Source: Deltaproteobacteria bacterium
Lineage (GTDB): Bacteria; Desulfobacterota; Binatia; UBA1149; JAJCZL01
NCBI GenBank assembly: GCA_029262415.1
Contig: JAJCZL010000033.1
Location: 1-64,000, forward strand
Direction: 5' to 3'
DNA: 64,000 bases
Positions 1 through 41,789 of this stretch are shown piece by piece. How positions within the stretch are numbered: position 1 is the stretch's first letter; each line of letters begins with the position of its first letter. Position numbers and translations under genes: made by a program. The notes under the pieces are model-generated. The model saw only the letters and a list, made by a program, of their open reading frames with translations, was not told the origin of the DNA and made no database searches.

Positions 1-425
1 TTCTTTGCCGACTGACGGTTTACCCTGGCAACAACATCGTCCGAGAGCAGCTCGTGGAGCCTGTCGGAGTGTAGAAAGAGAAACACCCGATAAAGCTCCG
101 GGTACTCGGTGTAAAAATCGTAGAAAAAGTTCCACACCGCCCGCACCTTACGATCAGGACGGCGCCTGGACGATCGAATCTTAGTAAAGCGCTCTTCGAA
201 CAATTCCATCGCTTGAAAGAGCAACGATATGTAGAGTTCCTCTTTGCTGCGGAAATACAGGTAAATCGTACCGGGGCTGAGTTCACAGCCGTCGGCGATC
301 TGTTCGATGGTCGCCTGCGTGAACCCTTTCTCGGCGAATATACGACGAGCCGCAACGAGGATCTCGGTGCGCCGTTGCTCACGCTCACGGGCACGCCGTC
401 CCTGTCTTCTCTCCATTACATCCAT
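1..425 (-). CDS. TetR/AcrR family transcriptional regulator (3' end cut by window edge)
   Basis: The first 141 codons of a TetR-type repressor are visible; the C-terminus lies outside the window. Residues about 20-66 form the helix-turn-helix, with the family pattern 'AARRIFAEKGFTQATIEQIA' followed by 'GTIYLYFRSKEEL'. The ligand-binding domain begins after residue 75 and its pocket is only partly seen. The ATG at 425 is preferred over an in-frame ATG at 416 because a GGAG lies 9 nt before it. It is the last visible gene of the minus-strand lipid operon, 37 nt after the alcohol dehydrogenase, so it probably senses an acyl-CoA or the operon's substrate. The palindrome at 11190-11211 near the operon promoter is a candidate operator. 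Its ligand is unknown. Confidence 0.9.
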   Translation of the reverse strand, partial: MDVMERRQGRRAREREQRRTEILVAARRIFAEKGFTQATIEQIADGCELSPGTIYLYFRSKEELYISLLFQAMELFEERFTKIRSSRRRPDRKVRAVWNFFYDFYTEYPELYRVFLFLHSDRLHELLSDDVVARVNRQSAK

Positions 426-462
426 TCGATCCGGCTCCTACCTGTTGAGTGCAATAGGTCCC

Positions 463-1512
463 TCAGCCCCCGGGCTCGACTACGACGCGCACTACCCCAC
501 CGTCCTTGGCGGCTAGGTGTTGCAAGGCATCGTTGGCACGCTTGAGCGGATAGCGTGCGGAAACAGACGCGCTCAAGTCTAGACGTCCGGCGGCGATAAG
601 ATCGTAGAGATCGGTAATATCGCTACGGTCCATGCCGAACGAACCTAGCACGGCCTGTTCGCGACCGACGAACGCCATCAAGGGCGGAAGCGAGGGACGC
701 CCGGTCCCTACGCCGGCGATGACCGCACGGCCGGCCTTGTCGAGAGAGCGAATCGCAAGTTCAACGGTGTCGGCGCGACCGATGAACTCCAGTGCCAGGT
801 CGAGCCCCCTACCACCGAGGTGCCTACGAATGTGCTTGGCGACGTCACCTTCGGCCGGGTCCAAACTGAGGTCGGCACCGACGCTGACGGCGCGATCGCG
901 CGCGGCTGCATTTACGTCTACAGCGATGATCTGTGCCGCGCCCATCATACGCGCGAGCATGACCGCGTGGGTGCCGAGCCCGCCGCACCCAAACACGCCG
1001 ACGGTCTCTCCGGCGCGAAGCCTGCCGCGCGAACGCAAGGCGTGAAAAGGTGTAGCTACGCCGTCTGTAACGATCGCCCCGACGTCGAAGGGTACGCCGT
1101 CGGGGAGCACCATGACCGACCGGGCCGGTACTGCTACGTACTCGGCCAACGCTCCGTCGCGTGCCATACCGTAAACCTGCGACACCTCACACAGAGACTC
1201 ACGGCCGGCGAGACAAAACCGGCACGCCCCGCAACAAGCAGAGGGAAAAAGAGCGACCCGATCTCCCTTCCGTAAACCGGCGACATCGCTACCGATCGCC
1301 GCAATGAGACCGGCCGCCTCGTGGCCCAACGTTATCGGTGTGCGCATTACCGGCAAGTCGCCGTCTACGGCCAGGTGCAAATCGGTACCACACAATCCAC
1401 ATGCGCTGACTTTGACGAGCAGCTCCTGCGCACCCACATCGGGCACCGGAACCTGCTCGACTCGTAAGGGTTCGCCCGCTTTGATTAACCGTGCAGCAAG
1501 CATACTCGCCAT
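463..1512 (-). CDS. Zinc-dependent medium-chain alcohol dehydrogenase
   Basis: A 349-aa medium-chain dehydrogenase/reductase. Catalytic zinc ligands are visible as C41 in 'CGLCGTD' and H64-E65 in 'GHE', with D150 at the usual third-ligand region. The structural zinc site is C94, C97, C100 and C108. The nucleotide-binding turn is G175-C-G-G-L-G180. It should interconvert an alcohol and a carbonyl with NAD(P)(H). The start has a strong AGGAGGAG ribosome site. In this operon it could oxidise a hydroxyacyl-CoA or reduce the aldehyde or ketone released by aldol cleavage. The exact substrate cannot be read from the sequence; relatives include 6-hydroxycyclohexene-carboxyl-CoA dehydrogenases and general alcohol dehydrogenases. 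Confidence 0.9.
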   Translation of the reverse strand: MASMLAARLIKAGEPLRVEQVPVPDVGAQELLVKVSACGLCGTDLHLAVDGDLPVMRTPITLGHEAAGLIAAIGSDVAGLRKGDRVALFPSACCGACRFCLAGRESLCEVSQVYGMARDGALAEYVAVPARSVMVLPDGVPFDVGAIVTDGVATPFHALRSRGRLRAGETVGVFGCGGLGTHAVMLARMMGAAQIIAVDVNAAARDRAVSVGADLSLDPAEGDVAKHIRRHLGGRGLDLALEFIGRADTVELAIRSLDKAGRAVIAGVGTGRPSLPPLMAFVGREQAVLGSFGMDRSDITDLYDLIAAGRLDLSASVSARYPLKRANDALQHLAAKDGGVVRVVVEPGG

Positions 1513-1616
1513 GACGTTCTCCTCCTATCGCTCTTGGGGTCGCCGATCACCTTTCGCTGTTCGCAGGTGTTGATGCAGCAATCGTGTAGTTTGACCGCCT
1601 GAAGGGCTGCTCTCAT
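1485..1616 (-). CDS. Candidate 43-aa cysteine-containing small ORF
   Basis: A short reading frame begins at ATG 1616 behind an unusually strong ribosome-binding site (AGGAGGAGG, 7 nt before the ATG) in the gap between the hydroxylase and dehydrogenase genes. It runs 43 codons and ends inside the start of the alcohol dehydrogenase, overlapping it by 28 nt. The peptide holds 'HDCCINTCEQ' near residues 11-20 and an Arg/Lys-rich second half. I recognise no family. It may be a real small protein, a leader peptide coupled to the dehydrogenase, or a remnant N-terminus. No peptide-modifying enzyme is visible nearby. Confidence 0.35.
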   Translation of the reverse strand: MRAALQAVKLHDCCINTCEQRKVIGDPKSDRRRTSWRVCLLHG

Positions 1617-1630
1617 AGATAAACCTCCTC

Positions 1631-2290
1631 CTATTCCGTCTCACTGGGAGACGGTGCCAGACACGACCCCAGAAGGTGGTCCCACAACGGGAACGACACA
1701 TTGAAGTTTCCACGAGCCATGAGCGCGGGGTCGTGATGCCTCCTGTGGTGGATACGCACCCAGCGAACCAGGGATCTGCGTCCGATCCACGACTCGGGCG
1801 GAAAGTGATGGATGGTATGGAACCATTCGTAGACCAAGTAGTAGGCCAGGATGCACGCGTAAAACAGGTATCCGAGATCAGGCGAAACTACGCGGCCGAG
1901 TACCATTGCAACCGGCACATTCGCAATGAGAATCGCGGGTAAGAACCACCACGGGAACAGGATGTAGTAGAGTTCGGAAGCATCTCGGATGACCATCGAC
2001 TGCTCGGTGTAAACAACGTGATGCTCGAGTGTGTGGCGTTGGTAAAGAAGACCTAAAAAACGGGTACGATGGTGCATCGGCCCACGGTGGATCCACCACT
2101 CGAAGCCGTTCGCGAACACAAAAAACCCGACAAAAAACAACCACAGCCCCGGCGTGGCCTGGTCGATTCCGCGCAGGAGCAATCGGATAGTCAGCAGCGC
2201 GACGACGTTGATCAAAACGAAGTGCGCGTACCCAGAGTACCAACGCGGAATTGCGGCAAGAAGCTCTCGGCGCTTTTCTTCTATCGGCAT
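1631..2290 (-). CDS. Fatty acid hydroxylase / sterol desaturase superfamily membrane protein
   Basis: A 219-aa integral membrane protein with about four hydrophobic spans (roughly residues 22-40, 48-64, 106-130, 138-156). The di-iron histidine clusters of the superfamily are all present: H68/H73/H74, H86/H90/H91, H158/H161/H162 and H181/H182/H185/H186. Members use O2 and a reductant to hydroxylate or desaturate lipids or sterols, or act on carotenoids. The ATG follows GGGAGAAAC. It sits between an acyl-CoA dehydrogenase and an alcohol dehydrogenase, so it could introduce a hydroxyl group that the dehydrogenase then oxidises. No ferredoxin or reductase partner is encoded nearby. Confidence 0.85.
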   Translation of the reverse strand: MPIEEKRRELLAAIPRWYSGYAHFVLINVVALLTIRLLLRGIDQATPGLWLFFVGFFVFANGFEWWIHRGPMHHRTRFLGLLYQRHTLEHHVVYTEQSMVIRDASELYYILFPWWFLPAILIANVPVAMVLGRVVSPDLGYLFYACILAYYLVYEWFHTIHHFPPESWIGRRSLVRWVRIHHRRHHDPALMARGNFNVSFPLWDHLLGSCLAPSPSETE

Positions 2291-2328
2291 AACGTTTCTC
2301 CCGCTTGCTTCACTTACGCACCGGGCGG

Positions 2329-3468
2329 CTATTTCACGAGATAGCGGGCGATGGTTTCGCGCTGAATCTCGCTGGTGCCCTCGCCTAGTTCGAGGACTTT
2401 ACAATCGCGGTAAAAGCGTTGTGCGGGGCTCTCGCTCATGTATCCCTGGGCGCCGCACAGGTGCAGAGACCGCTCGCACGCCCAGGTAGCGGTCTCGGAG
2501 GCGAACAGCTTGGCCATGGAGGCTTCCTTGTCGAAGGGCTTACCCGCGTCGACGAGACGCGCCGCGGCCAGTGTGAGCTGCCAAGCTGCCTCCAGGCGCG
2601 TAGCCATGTCGGCGAGCGTAAAGCGAACAAATTGCTGCTTGACGAGCGGCGCGCCGAACTGAACGCGCTCACGGGTATACGCAGCTGCATTCTCCAGCGC
2701 GGCGCGGCCGAGCCCGACACCGAACGATGCGGCCGCGATGCGGCCCAACACCAGTACCTTCATGGCGGCGAGAAATCCGCTGCCTTCTTCGCCAAGCCGG
2801 TTGCTCACAGGTACACGGCATCCATCGAAGACGATCTCCGACATTTCCGAAGCGCCCATCCCCAGCTTCTTCATCGGTTTGCCGGTACTCACCCCTTCGC
2901 GGGTGCGTTCGACCAAGAACAAAGACATCCCTTTGAGGCCTTGGTCGGGAGCGGTCGAGGCTACCACGACCATGAAGTCGGCAAAGGGGGCATTGGTGAT
3001 GTATAGCTTGCTCCCGTCCACCACGTATTCGTCGCCGTCGCGGCGAGCGCGCGTGGATACACTGGAAACGTCGGCGCCGGCACCCGGCTCGGCGTAGGCC
3101 CAACACCCCACAGCAGTCCCACGCAGGGCGGCCGACAAGACTTCATGATGCGATTTGTCGCCAAGGTGAAGAAGTGCGCTGCACGCGAGAGCGGTATGGA
3201 CGTAGATCCCCAGCGCGGCTCCCGCCGAGCCGCGTGCCAACTCAGAGCACAGTATCGCGTAGAGGACCGATCCTCCGCCACTGCCGCCCACCGACTCGGG
3301 AAACGCGGTTCCGAGCCAACCCAGCGCGCCCAATTTTTCGAACAGCTCACGCGGGTAACGTTCTTCCTGATCCCATCGGCTCGCGTGGGGAATGACTTCG
3401 CGTTCCACGAAGGCACGCACCTGTCTTTGCAATTCGGCTTCGTCGTCTCGTAGCAACGCATCGGTCAT
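2329..3468 (-). CDS. Acyl-CoA dehydrogenase (first copy)
   Basis: A 379-aa flavin-dependent acyl-CoA dehydrogenase. The reading frame is open further upstream, but the family N-terminus and a GGAG 8 nt before the codon fix ATG 3468. The flavin segment reads 'AYAEPGAGADVSS', the substrate loop is in the middle, and the C-terminus carries 'GEGTSEIQRE' with the catalytic glutamate E363 in its usual place. It should make a trans-2-enoyl-CoA, passing electrons to ETF. It is one of two divergent copies in the operon. Paired subunits are known in steroid side-chain dehydrogenases, so the two could form a heteromer or act on different chain lengths. Confidence 0.93.
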   Translation of the reverse strand: MTDALLRDDEAELQRQVRAFVEREVIPHASRWDQEERYPRELFEKLGALGWLGTAFPESVGGSGGGSVLYAILCSELARGSAGAALGIYVHTALACSALLHLGDKSHHEVLSAALRGTAVGCWAYAEPGAGADVSSVSTRARRDGDEYVVDGSKLYITNAPFADFMVVVASTAPDQGLKGMSLFLVERTREGVSTGKPMKKLGMGASEMSEIVFDGCRVPVSNRLGEEGSGFLAAMKVLVLGRIAAASFGVGLGRAALENAAAYTRERVQFGAPLVKQQFVRFTLADMATRLEAAWQLTLAAARLVDAGKPFDKEASMAKLFASETATWACERSLHLCGAQGYMSESPAQRFYRDCKVLELGEGTSEIQRETIARYLVK

Positions 3469-3517
3469 ACGCCCGTCTCCGGTGGAAGTGAGTAGTAGTA
3501 ACGCCCGGCTTGCAGTT

Positions 3518-4297
3518 TCATTTTCCTGTAAACACCGGCTTTCGCTTCTCTCGGAACGCCGCCAGTCCTTCCCGGTGGTCCTCGCTTTGTAAGCACTGCA
3601 CCTGAGCGAAGATCTCATAGTCGAACTCGCCCTCCATCGTGTAGTCGAGCGAGCGGCGGATCGCCTTCTTCGTGTAGGCGAGCGCGCGCGGCGGACCGTC
3701 GGCCAGACGCCGGGCGAGCTTGTCAACCGTTTCATCGAGTTGGTCGGCGGGTACTACCCGGGTGACGAGACCGATTCGCTCGGCCTCTTCGGCGTCGATC
3801 AGGCGACCCGACATCATCAAGTCGGTAGCTCGCCCGAGCCCGACCAGGCGCGGCAGAAAGTATCCCGCCGACATGTCGCAGCCGGCAAGTCCGATGGGGA
3901 CGAACGGTGCCCCTAATCGGATGCCGGCGGCGGCGATGCGAAAGTCGCCGGCCATGGCCAACCCCAAACCTCCGCCGACGGTGTCGCCGTGCAGACGAGC
4001 AATGACCGGTTTTTCCAGAGAACAAATCGCGCGGACAGGATCGAGGTAGTGGTCCACGATCTTCTCCCACTCGGCGGAGTCCCTGGGGATCATCTCGCGC
4101 TGGTCGGCGCCGGCACAGAATACCCGCCCGGCGCCGGCAAGAACGATCACCCGAGCCTGTGAATCCGTGGCAAGCTTGCCTAACGCGGCTATAAGTTCAT
4201 CGAGGGTCGGAATGTCTATGACATTGAGACGGTCGGGCCGGTTCAACGTAATGGTGCCGATGCCGTCGTCGACCTCGACCTGTATGGCGTCATTCAT
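3518..4297 (-). CDS. Crotonase-family protein lacking both hydratase glutamates
   Basis: A 259-aa enoyl-CoA hydratase/isomerase fold protein. The oxyanion-hole segments are present ('FCAGAD' at 60-65 and 'GGG' at 108-110). The two glutamates of rat mitochondrial hydratase (E144 in GGGxE and E164 in PE) are replaced here by G112 and F132. A conserved-looking 'AGCDMSAGYFLPRLVG' follows, and D141 in it could act as an alternative base. It is therefore probably not a classical hydratase; isomerase, decarboxylase, hydrolase or ring-opening chemistry is possible. The start follows AAAGGAG at 9 nt. It lies between the amidohydrolase and the first acyl-CoA dehydrogenase. Confidence 0.88.
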   Translation of the reverse strand: MNDAIQVEVDDGIGTITLNRPDRLNVIDIPTLDELIAALGKLATDSQARVIVLAGAGRVFCAGADQREMIPRDSAEWEKIVDHYLDPVRAICSLEKPVIARLHGDTVGGGLGLAMAGDFRIAAAGIRLGAPFVPIGLAGCDMSAGYFLPRLVGLGRATDLMMSGRLIDAEEAERIGLVTRVVPADQLDETVDKLARRLADGPPRALAYTKKAIRRSLDYTMEGEFDYEIFAQVQCLQSEDHREGLAAFREKRKPVFTGK

Positions 4298-4315
4298 GAC
4301 TCACAACTCCTTTGA

Positions 4316-5170
4316 CTACGCTTGGATTCCGAATACGCGCATCGCGTTGCTGCGCAGGATCTTTTCGTTGACCTCGTCTGAGAAGCCGAGCTTCAGCACA
4401 TCGTCGTAGGCACGTTTGAAGTCACACAGAGGGTAGTCCGTCGCCCAAATGACCTTGTCTTGTCCGTAGCCCCCCGCGTATTTTTTGAATGACTCGGGCC
4501 AGCGCGATGCATAGCGGGCCGATGTCTCGACGTAGAGATTCGGATGCTTCCAGGCCAGAGTCATCATTTCCTCGTGCCAAGGTTGGCCGAGATGGCAGCC
4601 GAGAATCTTCAAATCGGGGAAGGCTAGGGCAACCTCGTCGAGGTAGATCGGACGACCGCATTCGCTTGGAAGTAACGGCCCCGTATGCCCGACCTGAATC
4701 GCTACAGGAACGCCGAGTTCGCAGGCTTTGATGTAGACGGGCCAGTACATCTTGTCGACGGGTGGCGCCCCCGTCATATCGTTGCCGTAGGCGTAGGGCT
4801 CGAGACGAATGCAACGCAGCCCGAGGTCGCCTACCAGGTATTCAACGCGCGCGGCCACCTCCATGGGTTTTCCGCGCGGGTCGATGGTGCCGGCACCGAC
4901 GAAACGGTCGCGGTGTGCGCGCACTGTTTCGGCGACGGTTTCGTTCGAGCAAATCTCGAAGCCGCCGTACCCAAACGCCGACAGTACCAACCATTCGGTG
5001 TCAGCCGCGTCCATCTCAGCAAGCACTTGCTCGACGGTAAACCCAGCGTTAAAACGCTCGGCGACGCCGTAACGCTCAAAGATAGACCAGAACTGTTGCG
5101 GCCATTTGTCACGAGTACCGGCGGGTATAAGTGTTGCCCACGCATCGACCGCTCCGATTTTGTAGCCCAT
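4316..5170 (-). CDS. Amidohydrolase-2 family protein with atypical N-terminal metal motif
   Basis: A 284-aa TIM-barrel protein of the amidohydrolase-2 (ACMSD-like) group. Later strand motifs are present: H in 'QVGHTGP', 'CHLGQPWHEEMM', and the aspartate in 'WATDYPLCD'. The usual first-strand D-x-H-x-H is instead 'DAWATL', so two metal ligands are missing. Relatives perform non-oxidative decarboxylation or hydrolysis of C-C or C-N bonds, but with this change neither metal content nor activity can be assumed. The ATG follows GGAGAAAACAA. Its place among CoA genes suggests a decarboxylase- or hydrolase-like step on a pathway intermediate. Confidence 0.85.
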   Translation of the reverse strand: MGYKIGAVDAWATLIPAGTRDKWPQQFWSIFERYGVAERFNAGFTVEQVLAEMDAADTEWLVLSAFGYGGFEICSNETVAETVRAHRDRFVGAGTIDPRGKPMEVAARVEYLVGDLGLRCIRLEPYAYGNDMTGAPPVDKMYWPVYIKACELGVPVAIQVGHTGPLLPSECGRPIYLDEVALAFPDLKILGCHLGQPWHEEMMTLAWKHPNLYVETSARYASRWPESFKKYAGGYGQDKVIWATDYPLCDFKRAYDDVLKLGFSDEVNEKILRSNAMRVFGIQA

Positions 5171-5186
5171 TTGTTTTCTCCTCTAA

Positions 5187-6338
5187 CTAACGCGCTGTCG
5201 CCATTTTGGCGATAATCTCTCTCATCACTTCACTCGATCCCGCTCCAATGGTGAAGGCCGCTACGTCGCGATACAGGCGGCACACCAGGTAGTCCTCCAT
5301 GTAGCCGTAGCCGCCGTGAATCTGTAAAGCTTCGTCGGCTACACGCTTGACCGCACCGGCCGTAAACAGTTTCGCTATGGAGACTTCACGACCGGCAGCT
5401 TCCCCGTGGCTCAGCAGATAGGCCGCCGAGTAGGTAAGTTGCCTGGACGCCTCGATCAACACTTCAAGATCGGCCAAGCGGTGGCGCCAAACCTGGAAGT
5501 CGATGATCGGTTTTCCGAAAATGTTTCGTCCAGATCCGTACTCGTAGGCGAGCCGATACAATTGGGTCATCAGTCCGCAGGCCAAGGCCGATAAGACCAG
5601 CCGTTCGCCTTGGAACAGATGCATGATCGCCTTGAACCCGTCCCCCTCACTGCCGAGAAGATTGGCACGCGGCACACGGCAACCGTCGAAGAACAGTTCA
5701 GCGGTATCGCCCGCGTGGTTGCCCATTTTCTCGAGCTTACGACCAACTGAGAACCCGGCGATATCGGTGGGACAGACGATGGTGCTTATTCCCGATCCAC
5801 CCTCGCCGCCGGTTCTAACCGCCAGCAATATGAAGTCGGCTCTTGTTCCGTTCGTGATGAAAATCTTACTGCCGTCAATAACGTACTCGTCGCCTTCGAG
5901 CCGAGCCGTAGTTCGTAGGGCGGCAACGTCGGATCCTGCCGACGGTTCGGAGATACCAAGCGCGAATATCTTTCGGCCGGCGATGGCGTCGGGGAGAAAG
6001 CGTTGTTTTTGTTCCTCAGTACCGAGCGCGGTAACGATCGAGGTAGCCAATTCGCATTGCACCATGAGGTTAACCGCTGTTCCTACGCTGCCGCACTGGA
6101 CCAGCTCCTCGCACAGAATCGCGGTGTAGGTGAAATCCAAGTCGCTGCCGCCGTACTCGGCCGGGTGACGCACTCCTAGGTAACCGAGTTCGCCGACGCG
6201 CGTGAAAAGCCCGCGCGGAAAGATTCCCTCGCGTTCCCACTGGTCGGCGTTCGGCACCATCTCTTTCTCGACGAACGAGCGCACCGAACGCCGGAAGCTC
6301 TCGTGCTCTTCTCTAAAATAGGGACTCAGCTTGGCCAT
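5187..6338 (-). CDS. Acyl-CoA dehydrogenase (second copy, isovaleryl-like C-terminus)
   Basis: A 383-aa acyl-CoA dehydrogenase starting at ATG 6338, four bases past the acyl-CoA ligase stop. The flavin-binding segment 'GISEPSAGSDVAALR' is canonical. At the position where most relatives have Y-E-G-T-x-E-I-Q-R, this protein reads 'TIGAGSSEVMREII', so the usual catalytic glutamate is absent. The same change is known in isovaleryl-CoA dehydrogenase, where the base comes from another helix, and I could not place that residue with confidence here. This points to a branched-chain substrate. It probably works with the other copy at 2329-3468. Confidence 0.92.
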   Translation of the reverse strand: MAKLSPYFREEHESFRRSVRSFVEKEMVPNADQWEREGIFPRGLFTRVGELGYLGVRHPAEYGGSDLDFTYTAILCEELVQCGSVGTAVNLMVQCELATSIVTALGTEEQKQRFLPDAIAGRKIFALGISEPSAGSDVAALRTTARLEGDEYVIDGSKIFITNGTRADFILLAVRTGGEGGSGISTIVCPTDIAGFSVGRKLEKMGNHAGDTAELFFDGCRVPRANLLGSEGDGFKAIMHLFQGERLVLSALACGLMTQLYRLAYEYGSGRNIFGKPIIDFQVWRHRLADLEVLIEASRQLTYSAAYLLSHGEAAGREVSIAKLFTAGAVKRVADEALQIHGGYGYMEDYLVCRLYRDVAAFTIGAGSSEVMREIIAKMATAR

Positions 6339-6342
6339 GACT

Positions 6343-7932
6343 TTATTGGACTCCGTGCACGGAACTTTCCACCCCGTGCCAGTACGGTTTGCGAACCTCG
6401 CGCCGTAGAATTTTTCCCACGGGACTTTTGGGGAGATCGGCCGCAAAGCACATTTCTTTCGGCGTCTTGAACCCCGGCAAAGATGAACGGCAATGAGAGA
6501 TGAGTTCGGTCTCCGACACCGACGCTCCAGGCCGCTGTACAACCACAGCGACTACAGCTTCTCCCCACCGTTGGTCGGGTCGGCCGATGACGCAACACTC
6601 AAGAACCGCAGGATGAGCCTGGAGAACCTCTTCGACCTCTCGCGGAAAGACGTTCTGGCCGCCGGAAATGATCATGTCGTGTTTGCGGTCGCAGATGTAT
6701 AGGTAGTGGTCTTCGTCGCGTCGTGCGATGTCGCGTGTGTGCAGCCAACCGTCGCGCAACACAGCCGCGGTCTCGTCTTGACGATTCCAGTAAGACGACA
6801 TCACCCACGGTGCACGCACGCAGATCTCGCCCTCAAGGCCCGGCTCGGACACCGTACGTCCGTTGTCGTCCACCAGCCTTACCTCGGCGAAACCGTCGTT
6901 GCAGCGACCAATCGACCCCAAGCGCGCAGGGTTCTCGCCTAGCCAGTGCAAATGTTCGGCTGGACCCATGAGTGTGTTGAGTCCGTAGGCCTCGGTCTGC
7001 CCAAACCCGGTAACAAGGCCGGCACGGGGAAAGGCCTGCATGGTTCTGGCTACTAGCCGCGCGGAGGCGGGCGCCGCTGCATACACGATGGTTCTCAACG
7101 AGCTGAGGTCGCGGCGTGTTACGTCGGTGTGGTCAACCAACGCCTGCATCAAGGTCGGGACCATGAGCATGATGTTGACGCGGTGGCGTTCGATGGCCGC
7201 AAGGATGTCGCCGGCGTCGGGTGCGCATACGATCATGGTTGCGGCGTGGGACCAGCCGGCATCCATCAATCTGCCGCCGAAGTGACTGAGGGCGAACTGC
7301 CCCAGAACAACGTCGCCGTCTTGCATCGCCGTCCACTGCGACCAACCGGCGATGGCTGCGGCGACCGCCGCGCGTGAGTGCACAACGCCCTTGGGACGCC
7401 CGGTGGTTCCCGAGGTGTAGAGAATCTGCGCGGCAGCGGTGGGATCCGCTTCTGCGCCGAGCGGTTCGGCAGCAAGATCGCACGCGACGGCGTCGTCGTA
7501 CGCAACCATCCGGCCGCTCGATACGCCGCCCGCCGCTGCGACGGAAATCACACGGCTGACTTGGGATTGATCCAGAAACCGTGAGCAGCGCGGAGCCGCC
7601 TGCGCATCGAGGCAAACGACGATTTTGGCTCCGCTGTCGCCGACGATAAAATCGTGGTCGTGATCGGGTAGGAGCCCGAGCATGGGCACGTAGACACCGC
7701 CCGCTCGTGCTACCGCACAGACGGTTTCCATGTAGCGGCGACCGTTCCTTTGAATAATGGCTACGCGATCACCCGGAGCGAGTCCGGCGCCGGCCAGATA
7801 GGCGGCCAATGAAGAAGCACACCCATCAAGCTCGCTGTACGTTGTCTGGCCATCTTCGTCGATGACCGCGACTCGCTCAGCGTGGCGTTGCGCGGCAGAG
7901 GCCAAACACGAAGAGTAGGGATGCTGGATCAA
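6343..7932 (-). CDS. AMP-forming acyl-CoA synthetase (ligase)
   Basis: A 529-aa member of the ANL family that activates a carboxylic acid to its CoA thioester through an acyl-adenylate. Visible motifs are the P-loop 'YTSGTTGRPKG', 'GFGQTEAYG', the hinge 'GWLHTRDIARRDEDHYLYI' followed by 'DRKHDMIISGGQNVFP', and the C-terminal catalytic lysine in 'SPVGKILRR'. The frame is open for another 66 codons, but TTG 7932 is chosen: it follows AGGGGAG and overlaps the upstream stop codon as TTGA. It is the likely entry enzyme of the pathway encoded by this operon. Substrate specificity is not readable. Confidence 0.92.
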   Translation of the reverse strand: MIQHPYSSCLASAAQRHAERVAVIDEDGQTTYSELDGCASSLAAYLAGAGLAPGDRVAIIQRNGRRYMETVCAVARAGGVYVPMLGLLPDHDHDFIVGDSGAKIVVCLDAQAAPRCSRFLDQSQVSRVISVAAAGGVSSGRMVAYDDAVACDLAAEPLGAEADPTAAAQILYTSGTTGRPKGVVHSRAAVAAAIAGWSQWTAMQDGDVVLGQFALSHFGGRLMDAGWSHAATMIVCAPDAGDILAAIERHRVNIMLMVPTLMQALVDHTDVTRRDLSSLRTIVYAAAPASARLVARTMQAFPRAGLVTGFGQTEAYGLNTLMGPAEHLHWLGENPARLGSIGRCNDGFAEVRLVDDNGRTVSEPGLEGEICVRAPWVMSSYWNRQDETAAVLRDGWLHTRDIARRDEDHYLYICDRKHDMIISGGQNVFPREVEEVLQAHPAVLECCVIGRPDQRWGEAVVAVVVQRPGASVSETELISHCRSSLPGFKTPKEMCFAADLPKSPVGKILRREVRKPYWHGVESSVHGVQ

Positions 7933-8768
7933 GAATCGCTCCCCTTGCGCGGCGGCAGATGTCGCAAGGCCGGGCCGGTATAGCGGGCACCGAGTTGGGC
8001 GGGGATGATTCTTAAAGGAACGCCCGATTGAATCTCTTCCACAGCGTGGGCTACCAGCGCCGGACCGTAGACCAGAGCGCCGAGACCGCCGATCTCCAGG
8101 GGATGCCAACCGCGATCGACCATCACGCATGCGATCATCCCCGCGAGATTTACGGGTAAGCTACCGCCTGTACCGCGACGTAGACCCAACGCCCGGGCAA
8201 TCTCTTCGAGAAGCCTGCATGCGCTTCCCCAAGCACCTGCAGGCTCGACCAATCGCCGCAAAGCAGCAGCGCGCGGCTCGACCTGTTTGTGCAGTGGGTG
8301 TCCGAGGCCGGGCAGATATCCCGGTGCCGCCAACCAATGCTCGACGACCGTGTTGGCAGCTTCTCCCGTTTCGAGTGCCGCGCACAACATCTCCGCGCAC
8401 TGCTGGGGAGACCCGGTCACGGTTCCACTTGCAAGCATGCCGCCGGCTAGCGCCGGGATTACACTCTCGGGCGAAGCAGACGCGGTATAGCGTGCAGCGC
8501 ATGCTGCCGAGTTGATCAACTGCTGATCGACAGCGCTCTTAAGTACTGCCTCAAGCACCTGGGCATCGGTCTGCGTCGCCAGCTCTCCACGGATGACCAG
8601 ATGAACGACTTCGACGTAGGACAGCCGTGCGATCACTTCTTCGATCGGATATCCGCGCAACAGTATCTCGCCTTCACCGGCGCGACTGATGGCGGTGCTC
8701 CAGTAGTCCGAGTAGTCCCCGGAGGCGACATAGGATCCGATGCTGCGGCGTTTCTTTCCGGCTGCCAT
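7929..8768 (-). CDS. Citrate synthase / citryl-CoA lyase-like protein with altered active site
   Basis: A 279-aa protein of the short citrate synthase-like group that includes citryl-CoA lyases. The motif around the second catalytic histidine is kept ('LGHPLHKQVEPRA', H157). The segment that carries the catalytic aspartate in relatives (P-x-N-V-D-G) reads 'LPVNLAGMI', so A209 stands at the aspartate position. A histidine is also not evident at the first catalytic site ('AGGMLASGTVTG'). It may still cleave or form a C-C bond next to a CoA thioester, or be a binding protein. It overlaps the ligase gene by 4 nt and follows the hydratase by 7 nt. Confidence 0.82.
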   Translation of the reverse strand: MAAGKKRRSIGSYVASGDYSDYWSTAISRAGEGEILLRGYPIEEVIARLSYVEVVHLVIRGELATQTDAQVLEAVLKSAVDQQLINSAACAARYTASASPESVIPALAGGMLASGTVTGSPQQCAEMLCAALETGEAANTVVEHWLAAPGYLPGLGHPLHKQVEPRAAALRRLVEPAGAWGSACRLLEEIARALGLRRGTGGSLPVNLAGMIACVMVDRGWHPLEIGGLGALVYGPALVAHAVEEIQSGVPLRIIPAQLGARYTGPALRHLPPRKGSDS

Positions 8769-8775
8769 GGTCCGC

Positions 8776-9570
8776 CTATTTGCCCTTGAACCGTGCCGGT
8801 CGTTTTTCGGCGAAAGACGCTACTCCCTCACGCGCGTCTTCACTTTGGCGTACCGGTTCGGCAAGGAACTGTTCGAGTCGCAGGCCTTCTTCCAATGAAA
8901 GATCGAGCCCGCGCAGAGCGGCCTCTTTCGCAGCTCGCACTGCGAGCGGTCCGTTCGAGCAAATTGTCGCCGCCGTCGACAGCGCTTCGTCGAGTAACCG
9001 GCCGGCGGGCGTGATCACGCGGTTGACCAAACCGATCCGCAACGCGGTCTCGGCATCGATAGCCCGTCCGCTCAATATCATTTCCATGGCAATGCCGAGT
9101 GGGACGGCGCGAGCAAGACGCTGTGTGCCGCCAGCGCCGGGAACGATGCCCCAGCGCACTTCGGGCAGACCGAAGCTTGCGTGAGGCGAGGCGAAGCGGA
9201 AGTCGCAAGCCAATGCCAACTCGAGACCACCCGCCAAGCAATGGCCGTTGACGGCCGCGATGATCGGTTTGAAGATCGGCAGGTTGCGCGTGATCCCACC
9301 GAAACCCGGCTGATGTTCCGAGCGTTGCCTGCGCTCGCTCGGGGTAAGCTCGGCGTAGAATTCCCGGACTCGGCGCAGATCGGCGCCGGCGCAGAACGAC
9401 TTCTCGCCGCTGCCGGTGAGCACCGAAACCCAGAGCTCGTCATCGTCGCGAAAACGCACCCACGCAGCGTTGAGTTCATCTGCGGTCTCCGGATCGATCG
9501 CATTGCGCGCCTCGGGCCGGTTGATGGAGATCACGGCCGTGTGCTTATCTACCTCGAAATCAATCGGCAT
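8776..9570 (-). CDS. Enoyl-CoA hydratase with intact catalytic glutamates
   Basis: A 264-aa crotonase-family protein. Both hydratase glutamates are present: E117 in 'AGGLELALACD' and E137 in 'GLPEVRWG', followed by 'GIVPGAGGTQRL'. The oxyanion segment 'FCAGAD' is at 59-64. It should hydrate a 2-enoyl-CoA to a 3-hydroxyacyl-CoA, which is the substrate an Ltp2-type retro-aldolase would cleave. ATG 9570 follows GAGAAGGAC and lies 11 nt inside the DUF35 gene, implying translational coupling. It contrasts with the glutamate-free crotonase at 3518-4297. Confidence 0.93.
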   Translation of the reverse strand: MPIDFEVDKHTAVISINRPEARNAIDPETADELNAAWVRFRDDDELWVSVLTGSGEKSFCAGADLRRVREFYAELTPSERRQRSEHQPGFGGITRNLPIFKPIIAAVNGHCLAGGLELALACDFRFASPHASFGLPEVRWGIVPGAGGTQRLARAVPLGIAMEMILSGRAIDAETALRIGLVNRVITPAGRLLDEALSTAATICSNGPLAVRAAKEAALRGLDLSLEEGLRLEQFLAEPVRQSEDAREGVASFAEKRPARFKGK

Positions 9571-9991
9571 GTCCTTCTCTCTTGTTTGCAAGCACCGGAA
9601 CAAACACGGGAACTAGAAATCCGTTCTCACGCGGCTCGAGTTCGAGGTTAAGGGTGACGCCTACACGCAGAAGCGTCGGGTCATCGCAGCGGATACCAGC
9701 CATCAGACGCGGCCCTTCGGAGAGTTCGACGAGACCGACTACATAAGGGAGAGAGTCGGCAAAAGCCGGATCATACGCACGGTGATAGGTCGCCCATGTA
9801 AGCAAGCGCGCGTACCCCGCGCTGTCGATGAACTCGGTGTCGGTGGCCCAACATCTAGGACATATCGGTGCCGGCGGTAACCAGCACTGACCGCAAGCCC
9901 GGCAGCTTTGATAAGAGAAACGGCCTTCCCGCAAACGCTGCCAGTAGACGTGCGAGATCGGATCGGGCCTCGGCACCGGTTTGTGGCTCAT
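9560..9991 (-). CDS. DUF35 OB-fold / zinc-ribbon acyl-CoA-associated protein
   Basis: A 143-aa protein with an N-terminal rubredoxin-like zinc ribbon ('CRACGQCWLPPAPICPRC', residues about 31-48) followed by the DUF35 OB-fold region ('TWATYHRAY', 'YVVGLVELSEGPRLMAGI'). DUF35 proteins are obligate partners of thiolase-fold enzymes in several systems, for example ChsH2 with the aldolase Ltp2 and the DUF35 link protein between archaeal thiolase and HMG-CoA synthase. Its gene overlaps the thiolase-fold gene by 4 nt (ATGA), which strongly suggests a stoichiometric complex. Confidence 0.93.
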   Translation of the reverse strand: MSHKPVPRPDPISHVYWQRLREGRFSYQSCRACGQCWLPPAPICPRCWATDTEFIDSAGYARLLTWATYHRAYDPAFADSLPYVVGLVELSEGPRLMAGIRCDDPTLLRVGVTLNLELEPRENGFLVPVFVPVLANKREGHAD

Positions 9992-11127
9992 GCCGCTGTG
10001 CTCGCAAGAATCAGTGTCGCGTGAGTGTTGAGTCCGAGTCCGTGGCCGCTGACCAAGCCGAGTCGTGCTTCATCGACTTGACGGTCGCCGGCCTCACCTC
10101 GCAACTGGCGCACCGCCTCTACAATATGCAACATCCCCCCTCCGTAGCCTTCGGCGAGTAGGCCCCCCGCTGTGTTGACCGGCAGACTACCGCCGGGGCC
10201 GGTCTCCCCGGCGGCAACGAAGGCCCCCGCTGCGCCCGGGCGGCAAAATCCGTAATCCTCGAGTTGCATGAGAACGACGATGGTAAAGCAGTCGTATAGT
10301 TCGCATAGATCGATGTCGGCCGGTCCGACACTGGCCATAGCGAACGCGGTCGCTCCCGACCGCGCCGCCGGAAGCTGTCGTAGGTGGCGTGCGTCAAGCA
10401 TCGGTGCCAAACAGTGGGCTTGGCCCATGCCGGCGATACGCACCGGTGCGGGTCCGTCGGCCGGCAGTTGGCGAGCGGCCGAGACTACGACCGCGGCGCC
10501 GCAATCGGAGACCGGACAACAGTCGTACTTGCGCAGAGGCTCGACGACGTACGCGGAGTCCAGATAAGCTTCAAGATTGAGCGGTTCCCTGAACTGGGCG
10601 TGTGGGGTTAGAGTCGCATGCGCTCTGGCAGTGACCGCGACCGCGCCCAACTGAGCTTCGGTGGTTCGGTAACGCTCCATGTGCAAGCGTGCGGCCATCG
10701 CATGCAGGCCCACCGCTCCGAACAATCCGTGCGTAGCGTCGTCGCCGCGGCCATACTCAAATGTGCCCGGCGCCGATACCGGCGCGTCACCGTAGACGCA
10801 CAGGCAATGCGTGCACAGGCCGGCTGCGATCGCGTTTGCGGCCCGCTGCACCATTGACACCGAACTCGCGCCGCCGAGAACTTCTGTGCCACAGAGGTTC
10901 GGAGACATACCCAGCATTTCTCCGAGTCTGAGATAGTGGGGTGTGATGCCGTCTATGACCGGTTGCGTATAGCCGGGTTCAGCCAACAGACCGTCGACGG
11001 CGGCGAGTTCGAGGCCTGCGTCCGCCACCGCGGCTCGGCACGCTTGGGCCTGGAGCGACCAGGCCGTCGCGCCCGCCAGTTTCCCTACCGGGGTTGCTCC
11101 GACCCCTGAAATGACCGTGTCAGGCAT
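9988..11127 (-). CDS. Thiolase-fold protein resembling Ltp2-type retro-aldolases
   Basis: A 379-aa protein of the SCPx/lipid-transfer thiolase group and the first gene of the operon. The nucleophile loop reads 'VLGGASSVSM' (85-89 G-G-A-S-S), so no cysteine is available for Claisen chemistry. Where thiolases have E-x-H-D-C-F, it has 'ELYDCFT' with Y278; where they have a second histidine after S-E-A, it has 'LLAEGYGGGMLHI' with Y328. A tyrosine pair in this arrangement is described for the Ltp2 steroid side-chain aldolase. Together with the coupled DUF35 gene this supports retro-aldol cleavage of a 3-hydroxyacyl-CoA with a tertiary or branched C3. The start ATG has no Shine-Dalgarno; a promoter just upstream gives a very short leader. 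Confidence 0.9.
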   Translation of the reverse strand: MPDTVISGVGATPVGKLAGATAWSLQAQACRAAVADAGLELAAVDGLLAEPGYTQPVIDGITPHYLRLGEMLGMSPNLCGTEVLGGASSVSMVQRAANAIAAGLCTHCLCVYGDAPVSAPGTFEYGRGDDATHGLFGAVGLHAMAARLHMERYRTTEAQLGAVAVTARAHATLTPHAQFREPLNLEAYLDSAYVVEPLRKYDCCPVSDCGAAVVVSAARQLPADGPAPVRIAGMGQAHCLAPMLDARHLRQLPAARSGATAFAMASVGPADIDLCELYDCFTIVVLMQLEDYGFCRPGAAGAFVAAGETGPGGSLPVNTAGGLLAEGYGGGMLHIVEAVRQLRGEAGDRQVDEARLGLVSGHGLGLNTHATLILASTAA

Positions 11128-11139
11128 GACTGAATAGGA

Positions 11140-11168
11140 TTCATAAATTAAATCATGCTCAGTGGCAA
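11140..11168 (-). promoter_or_regulatory. Sigma70-like promoter of the catabolic operon
   Basis: Read on the minus strand, TTGCCA (11168-11163) and TATGAA (11145-11140) are separated by 17 nt, close to the sigma70 consensus. Transcription would begin near 11133, leaving only about 6 nt before the ATG at 11127, which itself lacks a ribosome-binding site. The first gene may therefore be translated from a nearly leaderless message. Confidence 0.5.
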
Positions 11169-11189
11169 GCCTCGACTCCGATCGTCTGA

Positions 11190-11211
11190 GGTGAACCTGA
11201 GGCGGTTCACC
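11190..11211. promoter_or_regulatory. 22-bp palindrome, candidate operator of the catabolic operon
   Basis: Perfect 8-bp arms GGTGAACC and GGTTCACC flank a 6-nt centre. The element lies about 21 bp upstream of the -35 box of the operon promoter. Size and symmetry suit a TetR-family dimer, and the operon ends in a TetR gene. A single GGTGAACC half-site recurs at 11546-11553. The position upstream of -35 would also suit activation. Confidence 0.5.
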
Positions 11212-11487
11212 GCCGGGCGGATTCCGAGCCCATTCCGGCGTCTTCTGTACGAATAATCGGCCGTAGGATCGCGTGCTGGGCCGCGTACGGGGTGAATCGA
11301 TCGGCCGGTACCATTTAAAAGAGACTGAAATGGTTTTGGTTCAGCCCGGCCGGGTTTCGCCGCGCGACGGCAGGCATTTTCCTGAAAACTGCGGTTTTCT
11401 TGAACAGGAAAACCCGGGTGGGCAGGTCAAGGGGGAGGGCGCGATCTCGGCTGTAAACCATGTGCCCGGTACGGACCCTAGTTTAGC
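11212..11487. other. Non-coding stretch with nested inverted repeats
   Basis: I see no convincing gene here; the open frames have atypical composition and no ribosome sites. Three inverted repeats stand out: ACCATTT/AAATGGT (11310-11316 and 11328-11334), TTTTCCTG/CAGGAAAA (11377-11384 and 11405-11412), and GAAAAC/GTTTTC (11384-11389 and 11394-11399) largely nested inside the second pair. They could fold as an RNA structure or be protein sites. Function unknown. Confidence 0.4.
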
Positions 11488-11508
11488 TGGTGCCCAGGGG
11501 CGGAATCG
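11488..11508 (-). repeat. 21-bp direct copy of the tRNA-Phe 3' end (att-like)
   Basis: The 21 bases at 11488-11508 are identical to 11569-11589, which is the 3' end of the tRNA-Phe gene including the encoded CCA and part of the T arm. Direct copies of a tRNA 3' end are the usual mark left by tyrosine-recombinase integration at tRNA genes. No integrase is visible in the window, so this may be a scar of a lost or very small element. Confidence 0.6.
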
Positions 11509-11568
11509 CGAGTGCTGCGAGCCGGCGAGCAGTGCGAGATGAGTGGGTGAACCGGATTGCGATGCGGA

Positions 11569-11644
11569 TGGTGCCCAGGGGCGGAATCGAACCACCGACA
11601 CGTGGATTTTCAATCCACTGCTCTACCAACTGAGCTACCTGGGC
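11569..11644 (-). tRNA. tRNA-Phe (anticodon GAA)
   Basis: A 76-nt cloverleaf with the CCA end encoded. Acceptor arms GCCCAGG/CCTGGGC pair over 7 bp, the anticodon stem GTGGA/TCCAC encloses loop TTGAAAA giving anticodon GAA, and the T arm GGTGG/CCGCC encloses TTCGATT. It lies 66 nt downstream of gshB on the same strand and has its own possible promoter. Confidence 0.97.
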
Positions 11645-11668
11645 ACTCCCTTGAAACGGGAACGAAGA

Positions 11669-11697
11669 CACTTAGCGCCGCATGCGCGGGGGGTCAA
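11669..11697 (-). promoter_or_regulatory. Possible tRNA-Phe promoter
   Basis: On the minus strand TTGACC (11697-11692) is followed after 17 nt by TAAGTG (11674-11669), about 25 nt before the tRNA 5' end. The -35 box is good; the -10 box is weak. It lies entirely in the gap between gshB and the tRNA. Confidence 0.3.
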
Positions 11698-11710
11698 GTA
11701 AGATCCCGGC

Positions 11711-12664
11711 CTAGCGCCCGAGTTCGCCGACCTTGCGCTCGATGAAGTCAATCACGTCTGCCTCGAGGGTGACGCCTTCGAGCGCGTTGATCTCTTGGAT
11801 ACCGGTGGGGCTGGTCACGTTCACCTCGGTGAGCAGGCCGCCGATGATGTCGAGGCCGGCGAACCAGATGCCGAGACGGTCGAGGTCGGGCGCCAGGCGT
11901 TCACAGATCTCGCGCTCGCGGGGGCCGATGACAGCTCTTACCCCGGTGCCGCCGACGTGGAGGTTGCCGCGCAGGTCGTCGGAGCGCGGGACGCGCAGCA
12001 TCGCGCCGCGTGGTGTCCCGTCCAGGTAGATCAAGCGCGTGTCGCCACGGCGCGATTCGGGCAGAAAGCGTTGTGCCATCAACGGACGCTCGCCGTGGTT
12101 TGTGAGCGACTCGATGATTGCATGGGCGTTTAGGTCGCCTTCGATGATCCGATAAACACCTATGCCGCCGCAACCGTCGAGCGGCTTCACTACAATGTCG
12201 CCGCCTACGTCTTTTTGAAAAGCGAACAGGTCAGTCTTGTCCGAGGTGACCAGCGTCTCGGGGATGAGATCGGGAAAGCGCAAGATGAAGAGCTTTTCGG
12301 TCGCCTCGCGCAGCGCCGAACCGCGGTTGAACACCAGCGTGCGGCTTTCGTCGATCAGGCTGAGAAGGTGAGTGGAGAAGAAGAAGTCGGTGTCGAACGG
12401 CGGATCCTTACGCATGAACACCGCGTCGAACTGCGCTGCGGTTACGCGTGCGAATTTGTCGTAGGCGTAGTGCTCGCCTTGTACCGGCTTTACCTTTAGC
12501 GGTGCTGCGTAGGCGGCAACCCCATCGGCTCCGGCGCTCAGGCCGGAGATCGAACACGCGTAGTTCTGGTGTCCGCGTTTCTGCGCCTCGCTGAGAAAGA
12601 CGAACGAAGTGTCTTTGGTAATGTCGAAGCGTTCGATCGGATCGATGACGTGGAGAAACTTCAC
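11711..12664 (-). CDS. gshB: Glutathione synthase (ATP-grasp)
   Basis: A 317-aa protein, matching the usual length of bacterial GshB, that ligates glycine to gamma-glutamylcysteine with ATP. The N-terminal 'MDPIERF'-like signature appears as 'VIDPIERFDITKDTSF', followed by 'FMRKDPPFDTDF', the ATP-grasp segments 'IVVKPLDGCGGIGVYRI' and 'NLHVGGTG', and the metal-binding end 'LTEVNVTSPTGIQEIN'. The start is GTG 12664, overlapping the rsmE stop as GTGA. It ends a prmA-rsmE-gshB run. No gshA is in the window. Confidence 0.95.
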   Translation of the reverse strand: MKFLHVIDPIERFDITKDTSFVFLSEAQKRGHQNYACSISGLSAGADGVAAYAAPLKVKPVQGEHYAYDKFARVTAAQFDAVFMRKDPPFDTDFFFSTHLLSLIDESRTLVFNRGSALREATEKLFILRFPDLIPETLVTSDKTDLFAFQKDVGGDIVVKPLDGCGGIGVYRIIEGDLNAHAIIESLTNHGERPLMAQRFLPESRRGDTRLIYLDGTPRGAMLRVPRSDDLRGNLHVGGTGVRAVIGPREREICERLAPDLDRLGIWFAGLDIIGGLLTEVNVTSPTGIQEINALEGVTLEADVIDFIERKVGELGR

Positions 12665-13467
12665 AGGCTGAAACGGCGCGCTGCGGGAGGCTTGCGGCCG
12701 AGGTCGCCCCACAAGTGCTGGCAGACCGCTACGGCAACGATGGCTGCGGTCTCGGCGCGCAAAACGCGCGGTCCGATACCGACCGGCGTGAAGCCGTGTT
12801 CGCGGGCAAGCTCGATCTCGCTGCGTTCAAACCCGCCTTCGGGCCCGACTATGGCGACAACCTTGAAGGTATCGGGATAGCGCTGGCGTAGGGTTGCCGG
12901 CGGATCGGGATCGGCTCCCGTCGTAAACAGGATGCCTAGCGCATCGGATGGCTTTGAGGCGACGAATTCTTCGAAAGTCCTCATGCGATCGACAATCGGA
13001 ACATGCGCGCGGCCCGACTGTTCGGCGGCCGATACGGCGACGCGGCGCCAACGTTCGACACGCTCGATCGCGGTCTCGGGTTTCAGTTTGGCCACGCTGC
13101 GGGCAGAGGTGATTACGCAGATGCGGTTGGCGCCCAACTCGACGGCTTTCTCAACGACGAGGTCGTTCTTCTTACCCTTGGCCAGGCAAGGCGCGATGGT
13201 GATGTCGAGCGACGACTCGGTGCTTGTGCCGAGGTCGTGCAAGACCCGGACAATCGCGCTCTCTCCCTGGTAGGTTTCGAGAACTCCGAGTGCTTCGCGC
13301 CCTTGGCCGTCGAAAACGATGAGTTCGTCACCGATCGATAGTCGCAGGACGTTCTTTATACGGCGACACGCGTTCTCGCTCAGGATCGCGCGATCAGAGA
13401 GCAGCCGCTCGGGATCTACGAAGATACGCGTCTTGGGGAGATGGTTTGCAGCGGCGGCTGTAATCAT
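12661..13467 (-). CDS. rsmE: 16S rRNA (uracil-1498-N3) methyltransferase RsmE
   Basis: A 268-aa SPOUT-fold methyltransferase that methylates U1498 in the 30S decoding region. Motifs are 'ACRRIKNVLRL' in the N-terminal PUA-like domain, 'LAKGKKNDLVVEKAVELG', 'AAEQSGRAHVP', 'VGPEGGFERSEIE' and 'LRAETAAIVAV' in the knot. ATG 13467 is preferred over GTG 13494 because GAGG lies 8 nt before it. The gene is 70 nt downstream of prmA and overlaps gshB by 4 nt. Confidence 0.95.
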   Translation of the reverse strand: MITAAAANHLPKTRIFVDPERLLSDRAILSENACRRIKNVLRLSIGDELIVFDGQGREALGVLETYQGESAIVRVLHDLGTSTESSLDITIAPCLAKGKKNDLVVEKAVELGANRICVITSARSVAKLKPETAIERVERWRRVAVSAAEQSGRAHVPIVDRMRTFEEFVASKPSDALGILFTTGADPDPPATLRQRYPDTFKVVAIVGPEGGFERSEIELAREHGFTPVGIGPRVLRAETAAIVAVAVCQHLWGDLGRKPPAARRFSL

Positions 13468-13537
13468 CGCTTCGCCCTCACTTCTTTCGTCCACTCAGCA
13501 TTGAGATGGTTACAATTTGTTGCGTCCCAAAAACGGA

Positions 13538-14428
13538 TCACCCGGTGCTCCGCTGTAGGGCTAGGGCGACCCACGCGCCATCGCGTAGCTCGCGGACCGT
13601 TATCCAGTCCGGCCCGTGGTAGGCGTCTTGTACCAGAGGTAGCCGGTTCGACCCAATGCCTGCAAGCACGATATGCCCACCAGGAATGACGCATGACGTT
13701 ATTTGGGGCCTCATTGCAACGAGTGTTTCGGCATAGATATTGGCGATAAGGATTTGGAATCCTGTACGTTCCGGCGGTAGCTCGGGCGCGCCCGAGCGTG
13801 TCTCGACCGAGACCCGATCCACAACATTATTCATGACGATATTCTCGTTCGCGGCATTCACCGCTACAGGGTCATCGTCTGTTGCATAGGCATGGGCGGC
13901 GCCGAGACGCACAGCGGCGATCGCGAGAATGCCCGACCCGGTGCCGACATCGGCGACGATATCGCCGGGTTGGACCAAGCCGTCAAGAATTTCCAGACAA
14001 CCCGCAGTGCTCTCGTGGTGGCCGGTTCCGAAGGCCATCGCGGGGTTGATCCGAACCACCGCGCGCGCGCGTTCAGCGTCGCTAAGTTCATGCCAAGGTG
14101 GGACGACGAGTAGTCGGCGCCCGGCACGCAAAGGCGGGAAGTGGCCGCGCCAATTCTCGGTCCAGGGCTTTTCGTCGACCTCAGTGATGCGGGCCCCGGC
14201 AACGAGATCGCGCGGCAGGCTGTCGACGACGTAGCGCGCGGCGCGCTCGGCCGCGGTCGCGCGTTCTTCTGCCGATTCACCGCCGATCTCAAGGTAGACG
14301 ACGAACTGGGTGAGTCCGCCCTGCGGGTGCCGGGTTTCCCAGCCGCGGACCGCAAACAGACTCAGCTCAGCTTCGAGCCGCTCGGCGTCTGCCGGGGTGG
14401 TATCGAGAACCAGCGCGTACCAAGCCAT
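13538..14428 (-). CDS. prmA: Ribosomal protein L11 methyltransferase
   Basis: A 296-aa enzyme that trimethylates ribosomal protein L11. The PrmA hallmark 'MAFGTGHHESTAGCLEIL' is followed by the SAM-binding loop 'VADVGTGSGILAIAA' and 'LIANIYAETL' (the N-I/P motif). An N-terminal recognition domain covers roughly the first 110 residues. It is transcribed away from the glycerophosphodiesterase, with fewer than 40 nt between the two starts, so their promoters must lie in or overlap coding sequence. Confidence 0.95.
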   Translation of the reverse strand: MAWYALVLDTTPADAERLEAELSLFAVRGWETRHPQGGLTQFVVYLEIGGESAEERATAAERAARYVVDSLPRDLVAGARITEVDEKPWTENWRGHFPPLRAGRRLLVVPPWHELSDAERARAVVRINPAMAFGTGHHESTAGCLEILDGLVQPGDIVADVGTGSGILAIAAVRLGAAHAYATDDDPVAVNAANENIVMNNVVDRVSVETRSGAPELPPERTGFQILIANIYAETLVAMRPQITSCVIPGGHIVLAGIGSNRLPLVQDAYHGPDWITVRELRDGAWVALALQRSTG

Positions 14429-29544: not shown

Positions 29545-29561
29545 CGGCAGTGCCGCTTTCG

Positions 29562-32491: not shown

Positions 32492-32492
32492 G

Positions 32493-33569: not shown

Positions 33570-33573
33570 ATCC

Positions 33574-41677: not shown

Positions 41678-41789
41678 AAAAACGTCCCTGGCTCCTTTTC
41701 GTGCCCGCGCTGGAAGTCGCAAAGCGTTACGACTGGGTGTACATTGTTGGCTCTCGCGTCGAGGCTTTTGGCCCGAGGAGGTGTGGTAG

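Follow-up and report, generated by a model that had tools for sequence, protein, structure and literature searches.

We describe an operon at positions 1 to 11,127 of a 64,000-nucleotide stretch of contig JAJCZL010000033.1 from a Deltaproteobacteria bacterium; we call the whole stretch the window. We propose, with a probability of about 0.6, that it is a conserved catabolic operon for a branched or alicyclic carboxylic acid, working by retro-aldol cleavage. Its genes encode a thiolase homologue with a DUF35 partner, two crotonases (ech1 and ech2), two acyl-CoA dehydrogenases (ACADs; acad1 and acad2), an acyl-CoA ligase, a citrate-synthase-fold protein (ccl), a PF04909 amidohydrolase-fold protein and several accessory proteins. 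Thiolase-DUF35 complexes that set short acyl-CoAs free by retro-aldol cleavage have been characterised mainly for steroids and ibuprofen. This gene set is not described in any paper found in the literature searched, which covered few subscription papers.

Conservation and modularity of the gene set

The gene arrangement is not due to chance: tight clusters in nine genomes hold nearly the full complement of enzymes, in several gene orders. We searched 148 genomes of the class and then read the DNA around ccl matches for neighbours. Orthologues of ccl (at least 57% identical) were found in nine of these genomes, from seven genera and six families. All nine clusters carry ech2, ccl, DUF35, thiolase and amidohydrolase genes; the ligase and acad2 genes are present in all eight clusters whose contigs extend far enough, and ech1 and acad1 in eight of the nine. 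Orthologues of the alcohol dehydrogenase gene (adh) occur in six clusters (one cut by a contig end), and a seventh contig stops before the adh position. Orthologues of ech1 (at least 60% identical) are likewise found in 9 of the 148 genomes, eight in common with the ccl carriers, and those of the amidohydrolase (at least 57%) in ten, including every ccl and every ech1 carrier. Nominal hypergeometric p values for co-occurrence of these marker genes, ignoring relatedness, run from about 2e-11 (ccl and ech1) to 1e-13. The original prediction, made from this DNA, had been of one co-inherited pathway, and the clusters in nine genomes support it; the comparison of operon content across relatives that it called for found the set clustered in seven genera rather than scattered gene by gene.

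Six of the clusters are organized as two divergent arms, A (amidohydrolase, ech1, acad1) and B (acad2, thiolase, DUF35, ech2, ccl, ligase and often adh), while the core genes are unidirectional in the window and at loci L039 and L040. The arms can also part company. Genome G110 has arm A alone (L092, 9823-13796), with the gene order amidohydrolase-acad-ech1-acad1 only, where the extra ACAD is 34% identical to acad1, and with its own TetR gene; in G106 the genes of arm B are accompanied by the amidohydrolase, and ech1 and acad1 are missing. The gene set is therefore co-inherited but modular, with separable arms. Identity between clusters does not strictly follow kinship: G006 belongs to the order of the window, yet its cluster shares 72-74% identity with clusters of another family and 57% with that of the window, which suggests horizontal transfer.

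Outside the class, an even sample of the phylum yielded only two further distant ccl relatives (43-46% identical), without the operon. Among the plasmid matches listed, thiolase relatives are at most 44% and ccl relatives at most 34% identical, and the full set is absent from the plasmids inspected. A second cluster of the same enzyme types, without ccl, lies elsewhere in the genome of the window (locus L096, G000 contig 9, 67001-86900; about 6033-13730 of the locus); it contains an OYE-family flavoprotein, an amidohydrolase (31%), a thiolase (31%, motif YGAY), DUF35, a crotonase, an ACAD and a ligase.

Active sites of the operon enzymes

The solved proteins nearest to the thiolase homologue are the uncharacterised thiolase 4u4e, TcLtp2 (6ok1) and CtSal (9myr). 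All nine copies have, like CtSal, a Cys-free loop where thiolases carry their nucleophile, with the sequence GGAS or GGAG (GGASS, residues 85-89, in the window). A YDCF motif (Tyr278-Asp-Cys280-Phe in the window) is invariant in the nine orthologues; its Tyr278 and Cys280 correspond to Tyr302 and Cys304 of the CtSal YDCY motif, which mutagenesis has shown to be catalytic (PMC12329534). For the second acid residue, which is Cys in Sal and Tyr344 in Ltp2, all copies have Cys280, and the Ltp2 Tyr344 position is itself Tyr in seven of the nine (Tyr328 in the window) and Phe in two. One orthologue has Tyr in place of the GHG-motif His, as would fit a protein that has lost thiolase chemistry. In a tree of only 18 rows, with Ltp2 on a long branch, the operon copies make up a single clade (99/96), which groups (99/99) with Ltp2 and with a protein from Variovorax. 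Because the nucleophilic Cys is lost, the YDCF motif is kept and the clade is distinct and adjoins Ltp2, retro-aldol rather than thiolytic cleavage, as originally predicted for this aldolase-like thiolase, is well supported by residues and tree.

The DUF35 gene overlaps the neighbouring thiolase gene by 4 nucleotides, and DUF35 orthologues are present beside the aldolase gene in all nine clusters, each with a Cys4 zinc ribbon (CxxC...CPxCW). A DUF35 protein is needed by a homologous aldolase (PMC12502768).

In our alignments ech2 keeps both hydratase Glu residues (Glu117, Glu137) in the nine operon copies, and no operon protein has a MaoC match, in support of the earlier proposal that a crotonase stands in place of the MaoC hydratase. 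Only one of the two crotonases looks like a hydratase, however: ech1 has neither Glu, and its Asp141, invariant in orthologues, falls in the alignment where the PaaG-like 6sl9 family has its Asp (its 186-bit match to the PaaG NCBIfam model is below the 345-bit cut-off). We thus predict ech2 to be a hydratase and ech1 a PaaG-type double-bond isomerase. The two ACADs differ as well. An isovaleryl-CoA-dehydrogenase-type Glu244 is found in acad2, where Ala365 takes the place of the usual C-terminal Glu (one numbering of acad2 residues counts from the residue following Met), and the usual Glu363 in acad1; from established knowledge of the ACAD family we take these Glu residues to be the catalytic bases. 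Both proteins have complete domains, each with its own Glu, and because their bases differ they are by sequence two complete enzymes. The analogy once drawn with the ACAD pair of steroid pathways is accordingly not supported, since these do not look like the ChsE1-ChsE2 halves, the interdependent subunits of a heterotetramer.

For ccl, the nearest solved relative is the citryl-CoA lyase 6HXP of Hydrogenobacter thermophilus (28% identical, E = 9.6e-52 with a profile), which agrees with a citrate-synthase-type fold for the predicted citryl-CoA-lyase-like protein. The catalytic triad of His, His and Asp has become Thr118, His157 and Ala209, fixed in all nine operon copies, and with two of the three residues lost standard citryl-CoA lyase chemistry is unlikely. 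By their titles, the ATP-citrate lyase mutant structures D1026A and D541A carry the same Asp-to-Ala change. Two ccl relatives outside the class (43-46%) have Thr and Asp at the two altered sites. For ccl the AlphaFold model reached a pLDDT of only 68.6, and the fold match of this weak model was not used beyond the family seen by sequence. We considered that ccl might be a second functional aldolase, acting on 3-hydroxy-3-methyl acyl-CoAs, and dropped this idea in view of the fixed His-to-Thr and Asp-to-Ala changes. Many ccl relatives of about 30% identity in the class (L026-L030, L032 and L033) represent a third type of active site: the first catalytic His is kept, and Thr (NVTG) stands where the Asp would be.

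The PF04909 protein was described as an amidohydrolase. Its fold is conserved (model pLDDT 88.2; best fold match 3irs, Z 27.9, followed by ACMSD-type decarboxylases and, lower, the LigJ hydratase and LigY C-C hydrolase), but the HxH metal motif on strand 1 is replaced by DAW in all nine clusters, with His162, His193 and Asp245 retained. The best NCBIfam match of the ligase, NF004837, scores 422 bits, below the cut-off of 476. The di-iron membrane hydroxylase assigned to the pathway does show the His-box pattern, but it occurs in only two of the nine clusters (those of the window and L021, 63% identical) and is better regarded as an occasional accessory than as core. L022 and L025 carry a protein of a different fatty-acid-hydroxylase family, bringing hydroxylase-type proteins to four of the nine clusters. 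A DUF4442 hot-dog protein, found in five of the nine, is absent from the window's operon.

Proposed pathway and alternative readings

From the gene content, co-inheritance, active-site residues and aldolase clade we infer the following reactions, their order and the substrate class. The ligase would convert the acid to its CoA thioester, acad2 would introduce a double bond to give the 2,3-enoyl-CoA, and ech2 would hydrate this to the 3-hydroxyacyl-CoA. The thiolase homologue with DUF35 would then cleave the 3-hydroxyacyl-CoA by retro-aldol reaction. Acetyl- or propionyl-CoA would be released together with a ketone or aldehyde; Tyr278 is the putative base, and Cys280 and/or Tyr328 the putative acid. 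The zinc-dependent alcohol dehydrogenase may work on the carbonyl product. The second, separable arm (acad1, ech1 and the PF04909 protein) would serve a different stage, in which a double bond is probably shifted before a C-C hydrolysis, a decarboxylation or a hydration. As for ccl, it may act on an acyl-CoA by an altered form of C-C chemistry, or be a CoA-binding partner. If this is true, a variant that is inherited as a set, serves non-steroid acids and has its crotonase as a separate protein would point to a more general route past branched or quaternary carbons. The fixed loss of catalytic residues in ccl is a concrete, testable case of enzyme repurposing. A bolder version, a complete new acyl-CoA pathway that breaks C-C bonds in two unusual ways (by a crotonase-fed aldolase beside Ltp2 for non-steroid acids, and by a ccl whose His and Asp were exchanged for a new reaction), we hold only tentatively, and think it rather doubtful.

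Several points weigh against the catabolic operon that we propose. It contains no aldehyde dehydrogenase, which a Sal-type aldehyde product would need. Sequence does not distinguish between the alternatives considered for ccl, for ech1 and for the amidohydrolase. The co-occurrence statistics are inflated by relatedness, three of the genomes being in one genus, and the cluster is found in only 9 of the 148 genomes.

A divergent operon for steroid or bile-acid side chains (an igr or Shy-Sal pathway) would explain the aldolase-DUF35 pair, a homologue of the Ltp2 and Sal systems that the tree places nearest to Ltp2, along with the ligase, the two ACADs and the hydratase. Sphingomonad bile-salt clusters likewise pair TetR, amidohydrolase, ACAD and ligase genes (PMC12882949). 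Sal and the DUF35 domain of Shy, from the bile-acid side-chain pathway of C. testosteroni (PMC12329534), share with the operon the missing nucleophilic Cys, the catalytic Tyr and Cys of a YDC motif and the DUF35 partner; however, Shy is a MaoC protein fused to DUF35 where the operon has a separate crotonase, its zinc ribbon is Cys3His1 rather than Cys4, and the Sal/Shy system differs further in its aldehyde dehydrogenase and in the operon aldolase being nearer to Ltp2. Ltp2 and the ChsH2 DUF35 protein (igr operon of actinobacteria; ORF40-44 of C. testosteroni TA441, PMC12502768) resemble the operon in their aldolase-DUF35 pair with ACAD and hydratase genes, in their neighbouring clade and in the short loop around the Ltp2 Tyr344 position. 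They differ in having YDHF for YDCF, and the operon has a crotonase as hydratase, ACADs with two different catalytic bases that do not look like heterotetramer halves, and additional ligase, citrate-synthase-fold and PF04909 proteins. Moreover, no KstD candidate was found in the genome (97% complete, so that about 3% may be missing and the absence is not absolute), where the only two strong FAD_binding_2 matches are L-aspartate oxidase (NadB) and succinate dehydrogenase (SdhA). For genes of the KstD type, this bears out across the genome the earlier remark that steroid-ring genes are lacking. The genome has four Rieske matches, the best of which weakly resembles glycine betaine monooxygenase. 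Without KstD and MaoC proteins, and with a Cys4 DUF35, a steroid nucleus is an unlikely substrate and we consider a steroid side-chain operon improbable. Among non-steroid systems, the ibuprofen route (ipfABDEF, PMC9195938) likewise has a CoA ligase followed by retro-aldolase-type cleavage by a thiolase homologue (ipfDE) to propionyl-CoA, although it uses a ring dioxygenase where the operon has an ACAD and a hydratase. An uncharacterised plasmid cluster of Variovorax sp. WDL1 from linuron-contaminated soil (L044, 8992-16782) also places a citryl-CoA-lyase-like gene beside a thiolase-domain gene, DUF35, two ACADs and an AMP-binding ligase, but its ccl is 33.7% identical with the Asp kept, and it includes MaoC, CoA transferases and LysR.

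Three further readings dispense with a single retro-aldol pathway. A membrane-lipid operon, in which the membrane hydroxylase, a thioesterase and the CoA enzymes remodel a lipid, would suit the fatty-acid-hydroxylase-type and DUF4442 proteins of four and five clusters, respectively; since neither accessory is universal, the L022/L025 hydroxylase is a different one, and two ACADs, a hydratase and an aldolase make a catabolic core, we find such a biosynthetic role quite unlikely. NCBIfam names the thiolase homologue an acetyl-CoA acetyltransferase, and every other enzyme type is compatible with beta-oxidation, so that the operon could be an ordinary one with a normal 3-ketoacyl-CoA thiolase. We rejected an ordinary thiolase on the active-site residues, the Cys missing in nine of nine and the GHG His not invariant, and the operon has no 3-hydroxyacyl-CoA dehydrogenase; ordinary beta-oxidation is thus very unlikely. 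It is just as hard to credit that the arms are two unrelated sub-operons sharing a locus and acting on different substrates: the lone arm A of G110, the G106 cluster and the divergent orientation in six clusters would be expected, but eight of the ten carriers have both arms, adjoining, in several families.

Gene layout and the tRNA-Phe site

The operon comprises 11 complete genes and a TetR gene, all on the minus strand (Table 1), and the twelve genes first reported there, mostly with small gaps or overlaps, are all borne out. Intergenic distances range from -11 to +49 nucleotides, apart from the 118 nucleotides between the membrane gene and adh. The window begins where its 120,470-base contig begins; this cuts off part of the TetR gene, and the operon may extend past the assembly. 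A promoter scan gave one promoter-like site, fewer than in shuffled sequence.

Table 1. Features of the operon and its tRNA-Phe flank in the window
Feature	Position	Strand	Basis
TetR-family regulator, 141 aa, open (cut by contig end)	1..425	-	PF00440
Zn-dependent MDR alcohol dehydrogenase (adh)	463..1512	-	PF08240, PF00107
Membrane protein, fatty-acid-hydroxylase-like histidine boxes	1631..2290	-	His-box pattern; no Pfam match above threshold
Acyl-CoA dehydrogenase acad1	2329..3468	-	Common C-terminal catalytic Glu363
Crotonase ech1, predicted double-bond isomerase	3518..4297	-	Gly112, Phe132 at hydratase Glu sites; Asp141 at PaaG-type Asp position
PF04909 amidohydrolase-fold protein	4316..5170	-	HxH motif replaced (Val8-Asp-Ala-Trp-Ala); His162, His193, Asp245 kept
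Acyl-CoA dehydrogenase acad2	5187..6338	-	Pfam; isovaleryl-CoA-dehydrogenase-type Glu244, Ala365 at usual C-terminal Glu position
AMP-forming acyl-CoA ligase	6343..7935 (start between 7905 and 7935)	-	PF00501, PF13193
Citrate-synthase-fold protein ccl, citryl-CoA lyase subfamily	7929..8768	-	PF00285; NF004869 below cut-off; nearest solved 6hxp
Crotonase ech2, predicted enoyl-CoA hydratase	8776..9570	-	PF00378; Glu117, Glu137
DUF35 (zinc ribbon + OB fold), aldolase partner subunit	9560..9991	-	PF12172, PF01796; Cys4-type ribbon
SCP2-thiolase/Ltp2/Sal-like protein, 379 aa, predicted acyl-CoA retro-aldolase	9988..11127	-	Pfam Thiolase_C_1
Second exact copy of last 20 nt of tRNA-Phe, att-site-like	11488..11507	-	

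The operon lies 3' of a tRNA-Phe gene (11569-11644) whose last 20 nucleotides (11569-11588) are exactly duplicated 61 nucleotides beyond it, the only two copies in the genome. The gshB-tRNA-Phe synteny is kept in most genomes of the order, and in the relatives G001 and G003 no operon enzyme gene is found at the tRNA-Phe site. Because the tRNA end is duplicated, the synteny kept and the site free of operon enzymes in these relatives, the locus fits acquisition of the operon at an attachment site in the tRNA gene, although no integrase was seen. A similar, near-exact tRNA-Phe duplication lies downstream of tRNA-Phe in G003 (L120). Farther along the window are housekeeping genes, at 18680-22412 (DnaG and a sigma-70 family factor) and 27463-43094 (PBP, a Mur ligase, a family-4 glycosyltransferase and FtsZ, a cell-wall and division cluster).

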